DNA of 35,462 nucleotides, from contig JAFGDN010000030.1 in assembly GCA_016932095.1 (NCBI GenBank), positions 1 to 35,462 on the forward strand, written 5' to 3'. The DNA is from Sedimentisphaerales bacterium. GTDB taxonomy: Bacteria; Planctomycetota; Phycisphaerae; Sedimentisphaerales; Anaerobacaceae. A program made the position numbers and the translations under genes. The notes beneath the pieces are model-generated. The model had not been told where the DNA came from. It saw only the letters and a program-made list of their open reading frames with translations, and made no database searches. Shown one piece after another: positions 3,354-27,112 of this stretch (its first letter is position 1; each line of letters begins with the position of its first letter).

Positions 3354-3381
3354 GTGATGAGTGATGAGTGATGAGTGATGA
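3354..3381. repeat. Heptamer tandem repeat (GTGATGA)x4
   Basis: Four perfect copies of a 7-bp unit. It belongs to the same structural class (7-bp unit, about four perfect copies) as the repeats inside the pseudopilin genes at 23494-23521 and 24551-24578, though the consensus differs. Confidence 0.9.
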
Positions 3382-3434
3382 GTTGGGGAAGCCGCCGCCC
3401 CTGCCTACGGCCTGCATCCCCGATAACAACATTC

Positions 3435-6932: not shown

Positions 6933-7060
6933 TTCGCTACGCTACGGGAATTGAGAATTTAGAATGTAGAATTAATAAGAGATTGCCACGGCCTACGGGC
7001 TCGCAATGACCGAACTCCAAACGGAGAACTGATGACAGATGACGGAAGACAGAAAAACTT

Positions 7061-7187
7061 CGAACGTCCAACTTCCAACATCGAACGTTGAACATTGAAC
7101 AAAGAATACAGAACACAGAACAAAGAATACAGAACACAGAATACAGAACACAGAACACAGAACAAAGAATACAGAACGCAGAACAGA
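7061..7187. repeat. Degenerate heptamer repeat (AAYACAG family)
   Basis: About eighteen 7-bp units run without a break: first CGAACGT/CCAACTT-type units, then AATACAG, AACACAG and AACAAAG in mixed order. All frames on both strands are open across it because the period of 7 shifts frame at each unit, which explains the overlapping spurious ORFs seen here. Confidence 0.85.
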
Positions 7188-18931: not shown

Positions 18932-19891
18932 ATGAAAACGACAGGATATAAAACAGGCAAAAAGGGCGGGTTTACCATCGTGGAGCTGCTGACTGTAATG
19001 AGCATCATAATACTGCTCATCAGCTTGCTTGTGCCGGCGTTGACGCGCGTGAGGCGTTATGCGCAGTTCGTCAAACAAAAAGCGCAGTTCCACAGTATCG
19101 GTGTTGCTCTTGACCTGTTCAATTCGGAGCAGGAGGGCTATCCGCCGTCGGACCGTCTTGATACGGCGCCGGCGCCCGGGCCGTTCTCCTACTGCGGGGC
19201 TATGAAATTAGCGGAGGCAATGGTGGGGCAGGACCTTTCCGGCTTTAATCCTAATTCGGTGTTCAGGAGAGACGGCCTTGACGCCACAGGGACGACGGAC
19301 CTGTATTTCCCTAATCCCGGCACCGGCAACGTGAATTTTCCGCTATACGTTGAAAATATGAAGTCCAGAAGGATGTATCTGCAATTAGAGAACGCCAACG
19401 CCTATCGGCTGACGGAAGTATATTCCACGGCGCATCGAGCCGGCACCAATTACGCCGATACCGCTTTGAGCCCAGAAGACGCCAACCGGGTTCTTTGCGA
19501 TGTTTATACGCGGACAATGGCGACCGGTCTAAAGACGGGGATGCCGATTCTTTATTATAAGGCGGATACATCGAAGATATTACACGCTGAGCCGAACACG
19601 GTCTGCACCGTCGCCAATAACAATATATACAACCGGTGCGATAACCAGGAGCTTGTGGATATCCCATTGCCGTGGGTAACGCCCAAAGGGCCGGTTCATC
19701 CGATGGCTTCTGCCGGCAGTACCATACTCGGCATGACCGCTAACGCCGGGATTTTCTACCAAAAGACGCGGGACAAGAAAATTTCAAGCGGCGACAGCAA
19801 GCCGTACAGGGCGGACTCTTATATCTTAATATCGGCGGGATTCGACGGCGAATACGGGACGAGCGACGACGTGTTTAATTTCGACGAATAG
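18932..19891 (+). CDS. gspG: GspG-like major pseudopilin
   Basis: This 319-residue pseudopilin has the prepilin site GG/FTIVELLTV at residues 12-21, with Glu5 of the mature N-terminus present, then a hydrophobic helix to about residue 35. The C-terminus SAGFDGEYGTSDDVFNFDE resembles the calcium-binding loop of GspG. It is much longer than a classical GspG (about 140 residues) because of a large middle region. AAGGAG lies six bases before the ATG. Leader cleavage needs a prepilin peptidase, which is not encoded in this window. It is the first of seven pseudopilin-like genes. Confidence 0.88.
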   Translation: MKTTGYKTGKKGGFTIVELLTVMSIIILLISLLVPALTRVRRYAQFVKQKAQFHSIGVALDLFNSEQEGYPPSDRLDTAPAPGPFSYCGAMKLAEAMVGQDLSGFNPNSVFRRDGLDATGTTDLYFPNPGTGNVNFPLYVENMKSRRMYLQLENANAYRLTEVYSTAHRAGTNYADTALSPEDANRVLCDVYTRTMATGLKTGMPILYYKADTSKILHAEPNTVCTVANNNIYNRCDNQELVDIPLPWVTPKGPVHPMASAGSTILGMTANAGIFYQKTRDKKISSGDSKPYRADSYILISAGFDGEYGTSDDVFNFDE

Positions 19892-19920
19892 CCGGACGAT
19901 TTGTGGAAAGGATATCGGTG

Positions 19921-20943
19921 ATGGATAAACGAAAGGCATTTACGCTGGTTGAACTGTTGACAGTGATAGTCATAATCGCGCTGCTGGTGGGGTTGCTGTT
20001 GCCCTCGATTGCTATGGTTCGCAGGAAGGCCAAAGAGACATCGCAAAGGGCGCAGTTTGCCGCGATAGAAACGGCTTTGGACGCGTTCAAGCAGGATTAC
20101 GGCGACTGGCCGCCGTCAGGCCGAAGAGACGCCATCGGTAGCGAGTACAACGGCTCAATGAAATTGGCCGAGGCGCTTCTCGGCTGGGACCTGCGGGGCT
20201 TTCATCCAAAGGTAACGTGTACTGATAACGTGGGCTGCTGGCGACGCGACGGTTTAGATGCCACCGGAGGCCCCTGGACATACGACCCGCCTTTGCCTCC
20301 TGCTATGACAAGGGCCAGAGGAACTGATACTCTCTTTGAGAGAAAAGGGCCGTATCTTGACACGGCAACAACGCCGGCCTTTCACATTGGGATTAGCGGC
20401 GCGGGTAAAAACGACGGTCTTTATGTGAATACGTTTGCCCTTTACACGATGAACTACGTCATTTGCGACGTTTTCGGTGTCCGGAAAATCACCGTAACCG
20501 ACCCGGTATCAGGCAATGTCATCAAAACCGTTACGGCCGGCTCGCCAATCCTGTATTACAAGGCCTATACGGCCAGCAAAAGTATAACCGTTGGCGGAAC
20601 AGTGGACGATTTCGCAAACAGAATTTATAATCATAATGATAACTATGACCTCGTTCTACTCGGTAAACTCACTGTAAACGGCGCCCAAAACGTCAATCAT
20701 CCCCTCGTGCACAATGCCTGGGACGCGACAACCCCGTCGTTTTATCTGGGCCAGTTCCAATATGACCCTGGCGCTGCGCCTCTACCGCGAGGATGGCGCT
20801 ATGGAGGGTCGGGCATCGCCTACGGGATAAGAGACCCGAAGTTTCTTCCAGACCCCTGGCCTTATAAACCGGATAGCTACATCCTGATATCGGCGGGATT
20901 GGACGGGCTTTACGGAACCGAAGACGATATTCATAACTATTGA
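19921..20943 (+). CDS. GspG-like pseudopilin, second paralogue
   Basis: This 340-residue paralogue of the preceding pseudopilin has a very short leader MDKRKA followed by FTLVELLTVIVIIALLVGLL, so the residue before the cleavage site is Ala, not the usual Gly. Parallel features are YGDWPPSGRRDA (versus EGYPPSDR), MKLAEALLGWDLRGF (versus MKLAEAMVGQDLSGF) and RRDGLDATG, showing gene duplication. It ends in SAGLDGLYGTEDDIHNY, a GspG-type acidic loop. The ATG at 19921 is chosen because AAAGGA precedes it by eight bases; an upstream GTG at 19903 would only lengthen the leader. Confidence 0.87.
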   Translation: MDKRKAFTLVELLTVIVIIALLVGLLLPSIAMVRRKAKETSQRAQFAAIETALDAFKQDYGDWPPSGRRDAIGSEYNGSMKLAEALLGWDLRGFHPKVTCTDNVGCWRRDGLDATGGPWTYDPPLPPAMTRARGTDTLFERKGPYLDTATTPAFHIGISGAGKNDGLYVNTFALYTMNYVICDVFGVRKITVTDPVSGNVIKTVTAGSPILYYKAYTASKSITVGGTVDDFANRIYNHNDNYDLVLLGKLTVNGAQNVNHPLVHNAWDATTPSFYLGQFQYDPGAAPLPRGWRYGGSGIAYGIRDPKFLPDPWPYKPDSYILISAGLDGLYGTEDDIHNY

Positions 20944-20971
20944 CGCGGGATTTCTTCGGGAGAATCTCTTT

Positions 20972-21661
20972 ATGAAGAGCCGCAGCAGAAAATACGGTCT
21001 CACACTCGTCGAGATGCTCCTCGTCATCGCACTCATCGTCATTCTTGTCGGGATGGTCGTCGGCGTCGCCAAACGTATCGACGACCAGAGCAAAGAGCGC
21101 CTGTGCGTAAGCACAATCGAGCTCGTCGGCAACGCGATGGAGCAGTTCCGTGATTTCGGTTATGAGTATAAGAATGGCGCTTATATCGGCCTTGCTTTTC
21201 CTATCGACTGCAATGGTTTTACCGTCCAGGGTCTGCCGAGAGGCATCGAACAGGCGTTAGGCGAGGCGATATATCCCGCGGGTGTAGTGGTTAATATAAA
21301 TCAAATTGAGCCGGTTCATGATGTTAACTGGTCCGGCTCTGAGGTTCTGTATTTTTGCCTCAGCCGGGTGCCGGATTGCAAATCGACGCTCGGCAAAATC
21401 GACAAGTCGCTTCTCACCAACACCGGTAATCAGGGTCTTCAAATCGACATCAGTATTATCGGTTCCACGACCATTACGGAACCGTTTACGCGAATCATTG
21501 ACCCCTGGGGCACGGCCCTGCGTTACAGCTATTATGATAAATTCATTGCGACTTTGCTGCCTGACCGTACTACGAAAAAGACGTTTCCCATAATTACCTC
21601 GGCCGGGCCGGACGGGGTTTTTGACACCGGCGACGATATTTCGAACAGGAAGCTGAAATGA
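20972..21661 (+). CDS. GspG-like pseudopilin, third member
   Basis: This 229-residue protein has the prepilin leader MKSRSRKYG followed by LTLVEMLLVIALIVILVGMV, with Gly at -1 and Glu at +5. It ends SAGPDGVFDTGDDISNRKLK, again the GspG-like DG..xT.DD pattern. It carries two or three Cys in the middle, unlike its two upstream neighbours, and lacks their RRDGLDATG region. GGGAG lies upstream of the ATG. It overlaps the next gene by 4 bp (ATGA). Confidence 0.85.
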   Translation: MKSRSRKYGLTLVEMLLVIALIVILVGMVVGVAKRIDDQSKERLCVSTIELVGNAMEQFRDFGYEYKNGAYIGLAFPIDCNGFTVQGLPRGIEQALGEAIYPAGVVVNINQIEPVHDVNWSGSEVLYFCLSRVPDCKSTLGKIDKSLLTNTGNQGLQIDISIIGSTTITEPFTRIIDPWGTALRYSYYDKFIATLLPDRTTKKTFPIITSAGPDGVFDTGDDISNRKLK

Positions 21662-22608
21662 GAACGACGCAAGACACAAGACGCAGGACGCAAGACGCAG
21701 GACGTAACGAGCCGCGTAACCGCCCCGTGAAATTCAAAGAATTTCCGGGACTTAGTCCTCGGAATCTTTTTAAGATTCCTGAGGGCGGCCGTTTTACGAG
21801 TCGTAAAGGTATGACGCTTCCTGAAATGACGGTGGTCATAACAATAGCGGCGTTAATGGTCGGATTGACTGTGCCTGCCATCAATATGCTGCTGAACTCG
21901 TTTGAGTCGCAAAGCGGCGCAAAGTCGATTATAAACGCCGCATTAACAAGCGCCCGCACAATCGCCGTAAAAGAGCAGCGCTACGCCGGCATTCGCTTCC
22001 AGAAACGCTACGACCCGAATACCAGCGTCCTCAACGCTCCGCAATATATGATTTTTATAATCCAGGACCCTGCCATAATGTCTTATGGCTTCCGAGCCGT
22101 GGATGGAATTCAGCCAATCAAATTACCGGATTCAATCGGTGTTATGGACCTTACGATTGTCCCGCAGCGGAACATACCATATCCTGATAATCCTGCACAA
22201 CAGGTTCGCATTGATGACCCGGTTAATGGTGGTGATAATACAATAAACGATAATTTTGAATTTCTCGACACTACTACTTTCTCGATAATATTTTCTCCAT
22301 CGGGCAAACTTGTCATTCATGGTGTCCGCGTCCGAAACAAAGATGGGCAGACCAATGATAGCAGCAAAGACGATATATTTAATACCGCTAATAACGTTAA
22401 TAATTTGATCTCGATGTTCTATCAGGATGATTACTGGATTGCCCCTTATGACTATGGTTTTGGTCCAGAACCAAGCAGAAATAGTTTTGTTATTTATGAG
22501 ACAAAGACACTCAAACAAACCGACAAGAATTATCGTTGGTCGCGTTATCTTAATCGCTTAAAGATAGCATATATAAATTCTTACACTGGAACGATTGTTT
22601 CTCAATGA
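21658..22608 (+). CDS. GspH-like minor pseudopilin, long repeat-derived leader
   Basis: This 316-residue GspH/FimT-type pseudopilin has the mature start after SRKG: MTLPEMTVVITIAALMVGL. The segment SGAKSIINAALTSARTIAVK fits the GspH helix, where FimT-type proteins carry L-x-x-A-R-x-x-A-(I/V). The leader is about 44 residues, far longer than usual, and its first part (residues 4-15) is written by five heptamers (ACGCAAG type, 21667-21701). The second part crosses a set of hairpins (21743-21806). AGGA lies seven bases before the ATG, which overlaps the previous stop, so this long leader is probably translated; a GTG at 21727 is an alternative start. Confidence 0.82.
   Translation: MRTTQDTRRRTQDAGRNEPRNRPVKFKEFPGLSPRNLFKIPEGGRFTSRKGMTLPEMTVVITIAALMVGLTVPAINMLLNSFESQSGAKSIINAALTSARTIAVKEQRYAGIRFQKRYDPNTSVLNAPQYMIFIIQDPAIMSYGFRAVDGIQPIKLPDSIGVMDLTIVPQRNIPYPDNPAQQVRIDDPVNGGDNTINDNFEFLDTTTFSIIFSPSGKLVIHGVRVRNKDGQTNDSSKDDIFNTANNVNNLISMFYQDDYWIAPYDYGFGPEPSRNSFVIYETKTLKQTDKNYRWSRYLNRLKIAYINSYTGTIVSQ
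21667..21701 (+). repeat. Heptamer repeat in GspH-like leader
   Basis: Five units ACGCAAG, ACACAAG, ACGCAGG, ACGCAAG and ACGCAGG lie within the coding sequence, 10 bp after the ATG. Confidence 0.85.
21743..21806 (+). other. Hairpin cluster in GspH-like leader
   Basis: Three inverted repeats follow one another inside the leader coding sequence: GGAC-tta-GTCC, then CCTCGGAATCTT-ttt-AAGATTCC-t-GAGG (8 perfect bp plus 4 past a bulge, 21757-21784), then TTTACG-agt-CGTAAA. They end just before the codons of the cleavage site. This could be a palindromic insertion or an mRNA structure. Confidence 0.6.
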
Positions 22609-23483
22609 TGAAGACAGAAAGCAGAAGACAGAGGACGGAAGACAGATGGCAGATGACGGCGGTCGGGATGATATTGAAAAATCATAAATCGAAAATCATA
22701 AGTCATAAATCTGAACGCGGCTTCTCGCTGACGGAGGTGTTATTGGCCGTGGGGACCTTAGCGGTCGGGATGCTGTTTATCGCGGGGGTGTTCCCGGTCA
22801 GTATTCATTTTACGACGGTGGCCTCCGAGCGGACAATCGCTGCAGCGGCAGCCGACGAGGCCTTCGCGAAAATTAAACTCTATGGCGTCAATCTTTCGGA
22901 CCCGGACCTGAGTTATAATGCACAGGCCTTATACGAAAACGTATCACCGGTAGTTGTTCCTAGTAGTGAGTTTGCATATCCATCGACTCCGATAAAAGAT
23001 GTGAGAGACCCTAATTACTGGTGGTCGGCTATTTGCAGAAAGGTCGGTGCAAGTGACGTTCAAGTCACCGTGTTTGTGAGTAGAAAACCGGGAAAGACAA
23101 CGAACTATTATATGAGAGACCCGATATCGATGCCTACTCTGATAACCGCCGCAAGGCCAATGCCGGTTATTGTATCCGTTAGCGCCTTAGGCGTCGCTAC
23201 GGATGAGCGGATGATAACTGACAGTATGCCTCCGCCTGCGGATTCGATTAATGAGGCATCTTTCATTAACGATGGCTATACTATTGTTGAGCATGCTGAT
23301 GGCCATATATACCGGATTTTGGAAAGATATAGAGACGATACATCAACTCCTTTGGACGAGAGCCGGATTATCCGTCTCGACCGTGATTGGCAGGGCGGCG
23401 GGGCGGTCTGGGTTGTTCCTCCGCCTATCGGCGGCGGCCGATACCCCTGTATCGCCGTTTATCAAAAAGTTATGCGTTTCTAA
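22605..23483 (+). CDS. GspI/PilV-like minor pseudopilin
   Basis: This 292-residue protein has the mature N-terminus FSLTEVLLAVGTLAVGMLF after SERG, with E at +5, typical of the GspI/PilV group (A-V-G-x-L-x-x-G). The leader is about 38 residues and nearly all of it is written by heptamer repeats: seven GACAGAR units (22613-22661) and five AATCATA-type units (22680-22714). The ATG overlaps the previous stop by 4 bp. Later ATG codons in frame (22608, and Met residues 17 and 22) are possible shorter starts. No further domain is recognised. Confidence 0.82.
   Translation: MMKTESRRQRTEDRWQMTAVGMILKNHKSKIISHKSERGFSLTEVLLAVGTLAVGMLFIAGVFPVSIHFTTVASERTIAAAAADEAFAKIKLYGVNLSDPDLSYNAQALYENVSPVVVPSSEFAYPSTPIKDVRDPNYWWSAICRKVGASDVQVTVFVSRKPGKTTNYYMRDPISMPTLITAARPMPVIVSVSALGVATDERMITDSMPPPADSINEASFINDGYTIVEHADGHIYRILERYRDDTSTPLDESRIIRLDRDWQGGGAVWVVPPPIGGGRYPCIAVYQKVMRF
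22613..22661 (+). repeat. Heptamer repeat (GACAGAR)x7 in GspI-like leader
   Basis: Seven in-register degenerate units. The 16-mer GAAGACAGAGGACGGA inside it also occurs in the non-coding stretch at 3529-3544. Confidence 0.85.
22680..22714 (+). repeat. Heptamer repeat (AATCATA)x5 in GspI-like leader
   Basis: Units AATCATA, AATCGAA, AATCATA, AGTCATA and AATCTGA end directly before the codons of the Arg-Gly cleavage site. Confidence 0.85.
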
Positions 23484-23490
23484 TTTTTTT

Positions 23491-24522
23491 ATGAAATACG
23501 AAATACGAAATACGAAATACGAGCGACGGGCTTTCACGCTCGTCGAGCTTGTCGTCGCGGTAGGGATAATGGCGATGGTCATCCTGTTTGCGGGCACTAT
23601 TTTCAAGGAGAGCATCGGCTCATATCGGGCAGCGTCGGCACAGGCAGAGATTATGCAGAAATTGCGAGTCATAACCGACCAGTTAGACAGCGACTTTAAA
23701 GGTCTTCGTAAAGACGCCCCCTTGTTTATATGGTTTCATCAGCATGACATCGATGCTCGCCAGAGATTTGACCAGATTATGTTTTTTGCCGACGGTGATT
23801 TTCAGTCAACCGGTCTGTGGGCGAATAAGCCGGTCGTGGGTAACTTGGCGAGAATATATTATGGACAAACGCAAAATTCTTTAGGATTAGAGCCAAAGAA
23901 GAGAATTCTTGCCAGACGCCAGCACATATCAACTGCTGATTTGGCGCTCGATGCCTGGCCAAATCCGGCAAATTTTGCAGCTACTTTTAATTTGGCCAAT
24001 AACGATATTTATGAGCATGACCGTATTTCGTTATCTCAGTGGCAGGCGCTAATGACACAAGATGTTAATGTATCTTTCACAATCGAGGCCTGCATTGGCA
24101 GAACCGGTAATAGCCGCCCAATGGTAAACCTTGCTTCCGCCCAGGGGTTGCATATGCTGATGACTGAAGGCGTAAGTAGTTTCTCGATTCAGTGGAGCTA
24201 TAATTCGACTCTTACGGGCAGTCCTGTTTTATGGTGGCCAAGCGTTGACCCTGAAGGCGACGGCCAAGTAAACAATCCCAACGATTTCAATTTCAATGTT
24301 TCTTTTCCATGGATTGACAGGATGGGTTTCTTTTTTAATGCCGTTAAACCAATTCCCTTATTCGTGCTGTGGAATTCGTATGATAATGCAAGTGGGCCAT
24401 ATTATCCGGTTATCAAGCCCGTATATCCGCAGGCGCTGAAATTCACTTTTACTCTTTACGATTCGAAGGGCGTGTTCAGAGAAGGACAGACGTTTACGCA
24501 TATAGTTTACCTGGGTGATTAA
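23491..24522 (+). CDS. GspJ/PilW-like minor pseudopilin
   Basis: This 343-residue protein is read from the ATG at 23491, seven bases after the previous stop. The leader MKYEIRNTKYERRA is encoded by four perfect AAATACG heptamers right after the ATG, then FTLVELVVAVGIMAMVILFA follows. The residue at -1 is Ala instead of Gly. The body fits GspJ (YRAASAQAEIMQKLRVITDQLDSDFKGL after the helix). An open frame continues upstream to 23251 but lies inside the previous gene and lacks pilin features. No ribosome-binding site is visible (T-rich upstream), so translation may be coupled to the previous gene. Confidence 0.83.
   Translation: MKYEIRNTKYERRAFTLVELVVAVGIMAMVILFAGTIFKESIGSYRAASAQAEIMQKLRVITDQLDSDFKGLRKDAPLFIWFHQHDIDARQRFDQIMFFADGDFQSTGLWANKPVVGNLARIYYGQTQNSLGLEPKKRILARRQHISTADLALDAWPNPANFAATFNLANNDIYEHDRISLSQWQALMTQDVNVSFTIEACIGRTGNSRPMVNLASAQGLHMLMTEGVSSFSIQWSYNSTLTGSPVLWWPSVDPEGDGQVNNPNDFNFNVSFPWIDRMGFFFNAVKPIPLFVLWNSYDNASGPYYPVIKPVYPQALKFTFTLYDSKGVFREGQTFTHIVYLGD
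23494..23521 (+). repeat. Perfect heptamer repeat (AAATACG)x4
   Basis: Four perfect 7-bp units directly after the ATG of the GspJ-like gene. One unit more or less would shift the frame of the whole protein. Confidence 0.95.
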
Positions 24523-24523
24523 A

Positions 24524-27112
24524 ATGGACTCAAGACCCAACACAAAAAACGAGCGACGAGCGACGAGCGACGAGCGACGATTCCATGGTTCGGCCATCAT
24601 ACTAGCAATCGTTTTGACGACGCTTTTGGCAATCGTCGCGGTGATGTTTCTGCTTTCGTCCCGCATCGATATGCTCGGCACTTCCGCCATCGCCGACAAT
24701 AAAAACCTCAACCTCGCCGTCGATTCCGTCATTGCAAAAATCTCGCAGGAGCTTGCCGCCGACGTCCCCGGTATTGACCCGAACAGCGAATACTACGACT
24801 ATCCTGACGGTAATGATGCCTGGCTTGCCTGCCTTGAGCCGTATCAATCCGGCGCTTATTATTTCTGGCGACAAGGCAGCAATATTTATAACGACCCATT
24901 CCTGTTGTCGCGGAATATAAGGGCGAGAGTTCTCGATGATTACAACAATTTTGTTATTCCTTATACGGCCGCCGACGCCGACGGCGACGGTGTAAGCGAT
25001 GCAAACTGGATTCAGATTCCGGGTATGACCAGCAGCAAAGGAAAATCCATATATGCAGCGATTCGAGTCGTCGATAATGGCGGTATGCTCAACGTCAACA
25101 CCGGCTATAAATTCGATGCCAACACATCCGACGGCTCAGCCCAATTGAACGTTAACATCATGTCCCTTTCCTGGCGGCCTCCGGGGACCTACGCTGCCGC
25201 AGAGGAAACTGATTTGCGAGTAGTTAGGTCGCCTGTATATCAATCTGAGTTGCAGCTCCCCGTATATGAGCAAGGAGTTATATGGAAATACGGTACTCCT
25301 GATGGTAACTTTACCCCGTTTGACGTTTCCGATGAGCTTGAGATGCGATACAGATTTGTGCTGAACCATAAAGACATTGATACCCGGCTGGAAAACTGGG
25401 GCGGCGAATTTAGAAACGCAGTTGAAAGCACTCCTTATAGCAGTGTAGCTGAATGGTTTTTTAGTGCTTATGACTTCGGCGTGCTCGACCCCAATTATGC
25501 CTATCGACATATCGCCACGACGTATAATTTCGACCGCATAATCGACCCAAACGGCGACAAAATGCTTAATATAAACATGCCCTTCGATGTAAATATAAAT
25601 AACACATACGCAACCGTTCGCCGGGCGCTCGACCCGGGCATTTCGGACGCTGTTACATCTCAAATAACTGCTAATCTCATAGATTATATTGATGGGTCTG
25701 GTTATATAGAATCCGACCCAAGATACGACCCGAATAATGATGTTACTGTCGTTTATGATACGAACGGGACTCCGCATTTCGGTTTTGAGCAGCCCTGCGT
25801 TTATATTTCAGAGATTGCTCAAAAATTTGTGCATTTAACATCTCCCAACGATGTTAATGTAAGGTCTTATGCGATCGAATTACAAAAACCGTATTGGGAG
25901 GACGATTTTCCCGCCGACCCAAACCACGGCTGGCAATTATTGGTCGATGGCAATGTAATACCTATCAACTGGACGGGCAGTCGTCGTTTCCACGTCATCG
26001 AGAATATCAATGCTCTTGCTCCCATCATTATAGATTTTACCGATGTTAACGGCCCCAACGATATAAACCAGCCAACCGACCCTTGCGCACAACCTCATCC
26101 ATACGTCGCTTTCAGCGCTAATTCCATCATTATCCTTCAGCGGCGTATTCCAGAAATAGACGCAAATATTACTGTTGATTGGGTATCTGTACCAGAACCT
26201 AATGACAGTTTGGGTTGGCTTATTGACCTTGATGTCAATGATATAAGGTCGGGCGTTTATAGCTACCAGCGGGATATCTGGCCCCATAAACACCTCAGAC
26301 GTTTTTGGGGTCTAAGCGCCAGCCCATCCGTCGGCAATAGCATCGCAATTACTGATTTCAGGGCAACCGGTAGTCCTTTTGTTGATAGTCAGATTCAGGC
26401 GCATCCGGCAAACAAGCCGTTCACCAATGTCGGACAATTTGAGGAACTATTCTATCGCTCAACTTATGATTATGGTGAGCTTATTCCATCTGGTCTAATT
26501 GAAGAGGATCTTAGAATCAATTTAACTGACCCAAATTATCAGCGGGTATTCAATTACCTCACTGTCTTCGACCCAACAACGGATGGAATAGATAACGACG
26601 GCGACGGGGTAGGAACTGGTTTTGAAGTTGATGCTAATGAACTAAAAGTCAAAGGCCGAATCAATATCAACACCGCTCCGTGGTTTGTTTTGGCTCAATT
26701 GCCGTGGCTCTCTTACCATACGCCGAATTACGACCTTGCTCGTGCAATAGCCAATTACAGGGACACCGTCGCCGGCTTCGAGAGTATAGGCGAACTTATG
26801 CGAGTAACGGACTCAAACAATCTTCTCAGTATGGATTTTTACTCGCGTGACGGTGATGGCAACGACTTGAGTGCCTTTCCTGATTTAACTCCTGCTGATG
26901 AAGCGGCCAATGACTTTGAAGAGCGGGACGTGATTTTCGCTCGAATCAGCAATCTTGTTACCGTCCGCAGCGACGTCTTTACGGCTTATATCCTCGTCCG
27001 CATCGGGCAGGACGGCCCGCAGAAACGCGTCGTGGCCATTCTGGACAGAAGTGAAACCCCAGCCAAACCGGTTAAGGTCATCGCCATACAATCAGTCCCC
27101 GACCCGAGGTGA
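24524..27112 (+). CDS. gspK: GspK-like minor pseudopilin, very large
   Basis: This 862-residue protein has a leader with heptamer-encoded ERRATSDERR, then FHG/SAIILAIVLTTLLAIVAVMFLLS, a pilin helix without Glu5, as is usual for GspK. The GspK fold is supported by GGMLNVNTGY (about 187-196), the KGRININTAPWFVLAQLP segment near residue 710, and a helix-hairpin-helix-like LARAIANYRD...FESIGELM. Classical GspK is about 320 residues; here a large Asp/Asn-rich middle (for instance DADGDGVSD, DNDGDGVGTGFEVD, possible calcium loops) is added. The ATG at 24524 follows the GspJ-like stop by one base; an upstream GTG at 24515 is possible. Capping the pseudopilus tip is the expected role. Confidence 0.85.
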   Translation: MDSRPNTKNERRATSDERRFHGSAIILAIVLTTLLAIVAVMFLLSSRIDMLGTSAIADNKNLNLAVDSVIAKISQELAADVPGIDPNSEYYDYPDGNDAWLACLEPYQSGAYYFWRQGSNIYNDPFLLSRNIRARVLDDYNNFVIPYTAADADGDGVSDANWIQIPGMTSSKGKSIYAAIRVVDNGGMLNVNTGYKFDANTSDGSAQLNVNIMSLSWRPPGTYAAAEETDLRVVRSPVYQSELQLPVYEQGVIWKYGTPDGNFTPFDVSDELEMRYRFVLNHKDIDTRLENWGGEFRNAVESTPYSSVAEWFFSAYDFGVLDPNYAYRHIATTYNFDRIIDPNGDKMLNINMPFDVNINNTYATVRRALDPGISDAVTSQITANLIDYIDGSGYIESDPRYDPNNDVTVVYDTNGTPHFGFEQPCVYISEIAQKFVHLTSPNDVNVRSYAIELQKPYWEDDFPADPNHGWQLLVDGNVIPINWTGSRRFHVIENINALAPIIIDFTDVNGPNDINQPTDPCAQPHPYVAFSANSIIILQRRIPEIDANITVDWVSVPEPNDSLGWLIDLDVNDIRSGVYSYQRDIWPHKHLRRFWGLSASPSVGNSIAITDFRATGSPFVDSQIQAHPANKPFTNVGQFEELFYRSTYDYGELIPSGLIEEDLRINLTDPNYQRVFNYLTVFDPTTDGIDNDGDGVGTGFEVDANELKVKGRININTAPWFVLAQLPWLSYHTPNYDLARAIANYRDTVAGFESIGELMRVTDSNNLLSMDFYSRDGDGNDLSAFPDLTPADEAANDFEERDVIFARISNLVTVRSDVFTAYILVRIGQDGPQKRVVAILDRSETPAKPVKVIAIQSVPDPR
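24551..24578 (+). repeat. Perfect heptamer repeat (GAGCGAC)x4
   Basis: Four perfect 7-bp units in the leader coding sequence of the GspK-like gene, 24 bp after its ATG. Confidence 0.95.

Follow-up and report, generated by a model that had tools for sequence, protein, structure and literature searches.

In-frame 7-bp tandem repeats in minor pseudopilin leaders and enzyme loops of a Sedimentisphaerales bacterium

Introduction

In many bacterial genomes, no class of long simple repeats is more abundant than the heptamers, and the residence of such repeats in coding sequence has been tied to unit lengths divisible by three (PMC4679880). Polymerase slippage was proposed as the cause of the preference for 7 nucleotides (PMC4692102, PMC4679880). 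The heptameric LSSRs GGGAATC of Xanthomonas and GGGGATT of Nostoc (Mrazek 2007), as summarized in PMC4692102 and PMC4679880, resemble the arrays described here in their 7-bp unit, genome-wide distribution, mainly intergenic location and variant units. They differ in that many units coexist in the present genome, where a good part of the arrays lies in frame within conserved proteins and leaders.

The STRRs of heterocystous cyanobacteria are likewise degenerate heptamers scattered between genes. STRRs are also found inside the RNase P RNA gene (rnpB), a functional gene that tolerates the insert. The present arrays belong to another phylum, have other units and occupy protein-coding loops and leaders. 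Repeats within open reading frames (ORFs) are known from Borgs, where they produce new disordered protein segments, some of them N-terminal (PMC9879509). The Borg units are divisible by three and give perfect amino acid repeats, whereas the unit here is 7 bp and the carrier is a bacterial chromosome.

Heptamers near a gene for a surface structure are best known from the Haemophilus HMW adhesins, which switch through 7-bp repeats (PMC8262952); these repeats lie in the promoter and vary in copy number, whereas those described here are translated and showed no change between species other than in-frame steps. Non-triplet repeats in genes are usually taken as switches. In the bacteria studied here, they are kept in frame in essential enzymes and in export leaders across a family, and the part of the literature that was covered contained no account of prepilin leaders made of heptamers, or of heptamers that recur as loops in housekeeping enzymes.

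Results

The window analyzed here spans 35,462 nucleotides and is one entire contig of a 2.95-Mb MAG (G000), whose congeners in GTDB are Phycisphaerales MAGs. It carries a compact operon on the forward strand, in which three G-like pseudopilin genes (18932 to 21661) are followed by an H-like gene (21658 to 22608), an I-like or PilV-like gene (22605 to 23483), a J-like gene (23491 to 24522) and a K-like gene (24524 to 27112). The ATG codons of H and I overlap the stop codon of the preceding gene, and J and K begin a few bases away from theirs. The Shine-Dalgarno-like sequence is good for H (AGGAAG), moderate for K and weak for I and J. A six-frame search placed the prepilin motif PF07963 above cut-off in H, I and J, and K presents an HHH_3 motif and a GspK match over its N-terminal 60 residues that is below cut-off. 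The assignment of the four genes as H, I, J and K, made in the original prediction, is based on the order of the genes and on family matches that are weak: H is ComGD/Verru-cassette-like, I is PilV-like, K is GspK/HHH_3-like and J matches N_methyl only. An Rfam search of the window gave no match, and AlphaFold, given an alignment of four sequences, yielded no usable fold for J (pLDDT of 32).

The five heptamer arrays that had been predicted in the leaders of H, I, J and K are present, with the expected units and positions, all on the forward strand. The H array (21666 to 21704) has 5.6 units of ACGCARG with an 84% match and encodes TQDTRRRTQDAG; its units at 21667 to 21701 read ACGCAAG, ACACAAG, ACGCAGG, ACGCAAG and ACGCAGG. 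Gene I carries two arrays, which are degenerate like that of H (matches of 73 to 84% in TRF for the three). The first (22610 to 22661) comprises seven degenerate GACAGAR-like units at 22613 to 22661, with a match of 73 to 76% (TRF), and the second (22677 to 22714) is of the AATCATA type and encodes NHKSKIISHKS, with AATCATA, AATCGAA, AATCATA, AGTCATA and AATCTGA at 22680 to 22714. The arrays of J and K are perfect. In J (23493 to 23522), four copies of AAATACG at 23494 to 23521 lie within 30 bp of unbroken period 7 and encode KYEIRNTKY, and in K (24549 to 24580), four copies of GAGCGAC at 24551 to 24578 lie within 32 bp of unbroken period 7 and encode ERRATSDERR.

The arrays had been described as lying between the start codon and the prepilin cleavage site. 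For J and K this holds, since no start codon occurs between the array and the cleavage motif, and synthesis of these proteins from a canonical start entails translation of the arrays. A canonical start downstream of the repeats, excluded by the same observation for J and K, is possible for H and, with respect to its first array, for I. The H array ends approximately 35 codons before the cleavage motif, with a possible GTG start further down, and a second in-frame ATG of I (22668) lies between its two arrays, so that the first may be 5′ of the true start and untranslated. The peptides encoded by the arrays are hydrophilic, with a mean net charge of about +0.9 per array. The earlier description of them as basic and charged is thus only partly correct, as the charge is mixed and the ERRATSD unit has a net charge of zero.

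The leaders were compared over 118 pseudopilin leader regions from G000 and 20 relatives. Segments of period 7 score at least 11 in 18 of these regions, against 0.05 expected from shuffles, and other periods reach this score in 0 to 3 regions. Of the 12 leaders of I, J and K in the genus, represented by four species (G000 to G003), 11 carry scoring arrays; the exception is the I leader of G000 with its two degenerate arrays. The leaders of the three G-like genes carry none in 12 cases, here and in the three congeners. All 13 array-bearing leaders of the four species, a small sample, are in frame.

The sequence of the unit turns over at these fixed sites. The I leader has GAAGACA and AAATCAT types in G000, AAATCCG in G001, an ACGAGTC type in G002 and AAGACCC in G003, and the units of K also differ by species; the AAATACG type of J is common to G000, G002 and G003. 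The J leader extends over 14 (G003), 15 (G000), 21 (G002) and 22 (G001) residues up to the phenylalanine of the motif, and these lengths are set apart by three units, to within a codon. Leaders of more distant genera are mainly short and plain, and arrays nonetheless recur there. Recycled repeats are also found at gene junctions, and a repeat unit can there include the start codon, as in G001, G006 and G015, with AACAATGAACAATGAAC in the latter two. In G042, a leader suspected of being an OFF allele proved to have in-frame TTG starts and was rejected as such.

The leader arrays show a sense bias. The sense strand is purine rich in 20 of 22 leader arrays and in 11 of 25 intergenic arrays between codirected genes (Fisher p = 0.0008, an optimistic value, since related species do not contribute independent arrays). 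Stop codons were rejected as the cause of the purine bias, since among 55 intergenic arrays the purine-rich strand is stop free in 16 and the other strand in 29. Two further prepilin-like genes of G000, on contigs C28 and C72, have leaders with arrays of the GACGGAA/GAAGACA type. Separately, a T-rich array on the minus strand of contig C4 of G000 (2809 to 2838) appears to encode the hydrophobic core of the signal peptide of an RCC1-repeat protein.

Arrays also reside in frame within enzymes. They were found in kdsB, valS, mutL, gyrA, truA and the genes of a CoA-enzyme activase and an S41 protease, with the families confirmed by Pfam, and near the C terminus of a LeuA-like enzyme. KdsB has three sites, the BadF/HGD-type activase has two, and those of MutL and GyrA lie in the linker and in the C-terminal tail, respectively. 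Alignment of KdsB, TruA, ValS and the activase with relatives places the arrays in extra or variable loops, and in-frame insertion at such places in a conserved protein is a trait that they share with the palindromic elements of Rickettsia. The essentiality of such enzyme genes is well established.

The kdsB gene (G000, contig C18, 10581 to 11543, minus strand) has heptamer-encoded inserts at three loops. Heptamers occupy these three sites in several species, and the more distant genera have unlike units there. The AAACTCA array at site 3 measures 33 bp in G000 as well as in G002, and the AGCG-type array beside the AAACTCA block numbers four units in G000 as well as in G001; copy number in kdsB is stable across species, as these equal lengths indicate. 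Turnover of the unit at a fixed site is seen in other enzymes as well: one loop of the activase has AAGACAG in G001, AAATCTC in G002 and GAGCGAC in G007, and one loop of TruA has different heptamers in G000, G007 and G011. The arrays of gyrA, mutL, kdsB and truA are degenerate. The array in valS, a gene with one full-length match in G000, is perfect (contig C7, 13211 to 13240) and spans 30 bp, the length of that in J. The same contig holds several heptamer-like arrays in the mutL linker (19640 to 19850). As a side observation, the valS frame of G001 (contig C37, 52626 to 55817) is about 120 residues longer (1,081 residues, against 960 to 982 in G000) and includes a large insertion around query residue 480.

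The arrays of the operon are real but not special to it, and period 7 dominates throughout the genome. A sample of 716 kb of G000 holds 79 arrays of period 7 with a score of at least 12, against 6 of period 6 and no more than 16 for any period from 4 to 6 and from 8 to 12. Shuffling of a 403-kb subset left no period-7 array, compared with 43 in the real subset. By the simple method used for ORF calling, which makes the coding and intergenic counts approximate, 53 of the 79 arrays lie outside called ORFs, although ORFs make up 86% of the DNA (403-kb subset). Over-representation of 7-bp repeats and a mainly intergenic location, which characterize LSSRs and STRRs, are thus both found in G000. Scaling from the sample, the whole genome probably holds several hundred 7-bp tandem arrays. 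Two examples in the window lie outside the operon: a perfect, intergenic GTGATGA array (3354 to 3383), and a 129-bp block of GAACACA and related units (7056 to 7184) outside the genes called by size. Small samples of relatives in the family gave from 0 to 29 heptamer arrays per 100 kb.

Discussion

We consider it quite probable that a genome-wide heptamer process, filtered for reading frame and peptide chemistry, supplies both the prepilin leaders and the protein loops. Of the two explanations in the original prediction, the one in which repeats were taken over as leader peptides is supported and extends to the loops of housekeeping enzymes. A slippage-like or copying process would generate 7-bp arrays with a lineage-specific repertoire of units, and most of these would settle between genes. 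An array at or inside a gene would survive only where the frame is kept, no stop codon arises and the peptide is harmless or useful. The prepilin leader may be a preferred refuge, because the demands on the peptide are low, it would be cleaved off, and intergenic space is scarce. It is bounded by the start codon and the site of the peptidase, the operon leaves hardly any room between genes, and the peptide would need only to be hydrophilic and roughly basic before its presumed removal by the prepilin peptidase at maturation. Surface loops, linkers and termini of enzymes would be other refuges. The four leaders of the operon would then be tolerated or co-opted heptamer repeats that are constitutively translated, and they may even benefit from hydrophilic peptides. 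The marked enrichment of arrays in the I, J and K leaders of the genus over other gene starts could mean a positive role rather than tolerance. Because the unit turns over at fixed sites, these loci offer a natural test bed for the origin of new loops and leader peptides.

A stronger form of this explanation is that a lineage-specific process actively seeds arrays, which evolution repeatedly turns into leaders, in some cases along with the start codon and the stop codon before it, into enzyme loops at fixed hot spots and perhaps into the hydrophobic part of a signal peptide. A non-triplet repeat would then serve generally as a source of new peptide segments. We regard this form as rather unlikely.

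It is more doubtful still that the arrays derive from a selfish mobile element instead of local slippage; as with the palindromic elements of Rickettsia, heptamer blocks would be copied into genes, and the arrays would be what such an element produced or left behind. Units are common to several loci about sixfold more often than permuted ones, and the GAAGACA type has 52 pattern matches in G000 while being found in only 18 of 392 genomes of a phylum sample, a search for which the reversed-pattern control was uninformative, as the reversed heptamer resembles the pattern. Both observations would suit such an element. Rickettsia palindromic elements, however, have a single conserved palindromic sequence, whereas 50 different canonical units were counted among 89 arrays here, and unlike units occupy one and the same loop.

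The other explanation of the original prediction, multi-locus phase variation in which array slippage would switch the reading frames of the four minor pseudopilins, is very unlikely on the present evidence. Its mechanical premise is sound: the gain or loss of one or two units would truncate H, I, J or K, whereas three units keep the frame. The arrays of J and K are moreover among the longest perfect ones in the genome sample, and the HMW adhesins of Haemophilus provide a precedent (PMC8262952). Switching is thus possible in principle, but it is not supported. The perfect array of valS is as long and as pure as that of J and lies within a gene with one full-length copy, and slip-prone repeats are therefore not confined to switchable, nonessential genes. 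The kdsB array is equally long in orthologs of different species, none of the 13 array-bearing leaders in the small sample from the genus is out of frame, and J and K have only about four units each. Degenerate arrays are expected to slip inefficiently, and slippage at H and I should be inefficient for this reason. The arrays are probably stable within the population, and those of the leaders presumably have no switching role. This locus is a warning that the anatomy of a repeat alone is insufficient for calling phase variation.

Also very unlikely is the reading that the arrays are RNA or DNA signals at gene junctions, acting for example in translation initiation or in coupling between the pseudopilin genes, with the peptide as a by-product, for although in each of the four species of the genus they are concentrated where I, J and K begin, next to weak Shine-Dalgarno sequences in I and J and sometimes around the start codon itself, and although translational regulation was proposed for TAACTGA heptamers 5′ of start codons in Beggiatoaceae (PMC4679880), they have no one unit in common, with units that differ between genes and between species, belong to a class that is also found mid-enzyme and intergenically on either strand, and are lacking in most relatives.

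Repeats of other kinds accompany the heptamers. In G000, two secondary and weaker classes have periods of 9 and 10 (16 and 15 arrays, respectively, in 716 kb), which are absent from the 403-kb shuffle too, and a 102-bp tandem repeat of 2.6 copies, unrelated to the heptamers, occupies positions 1346 to 1605 of the window.
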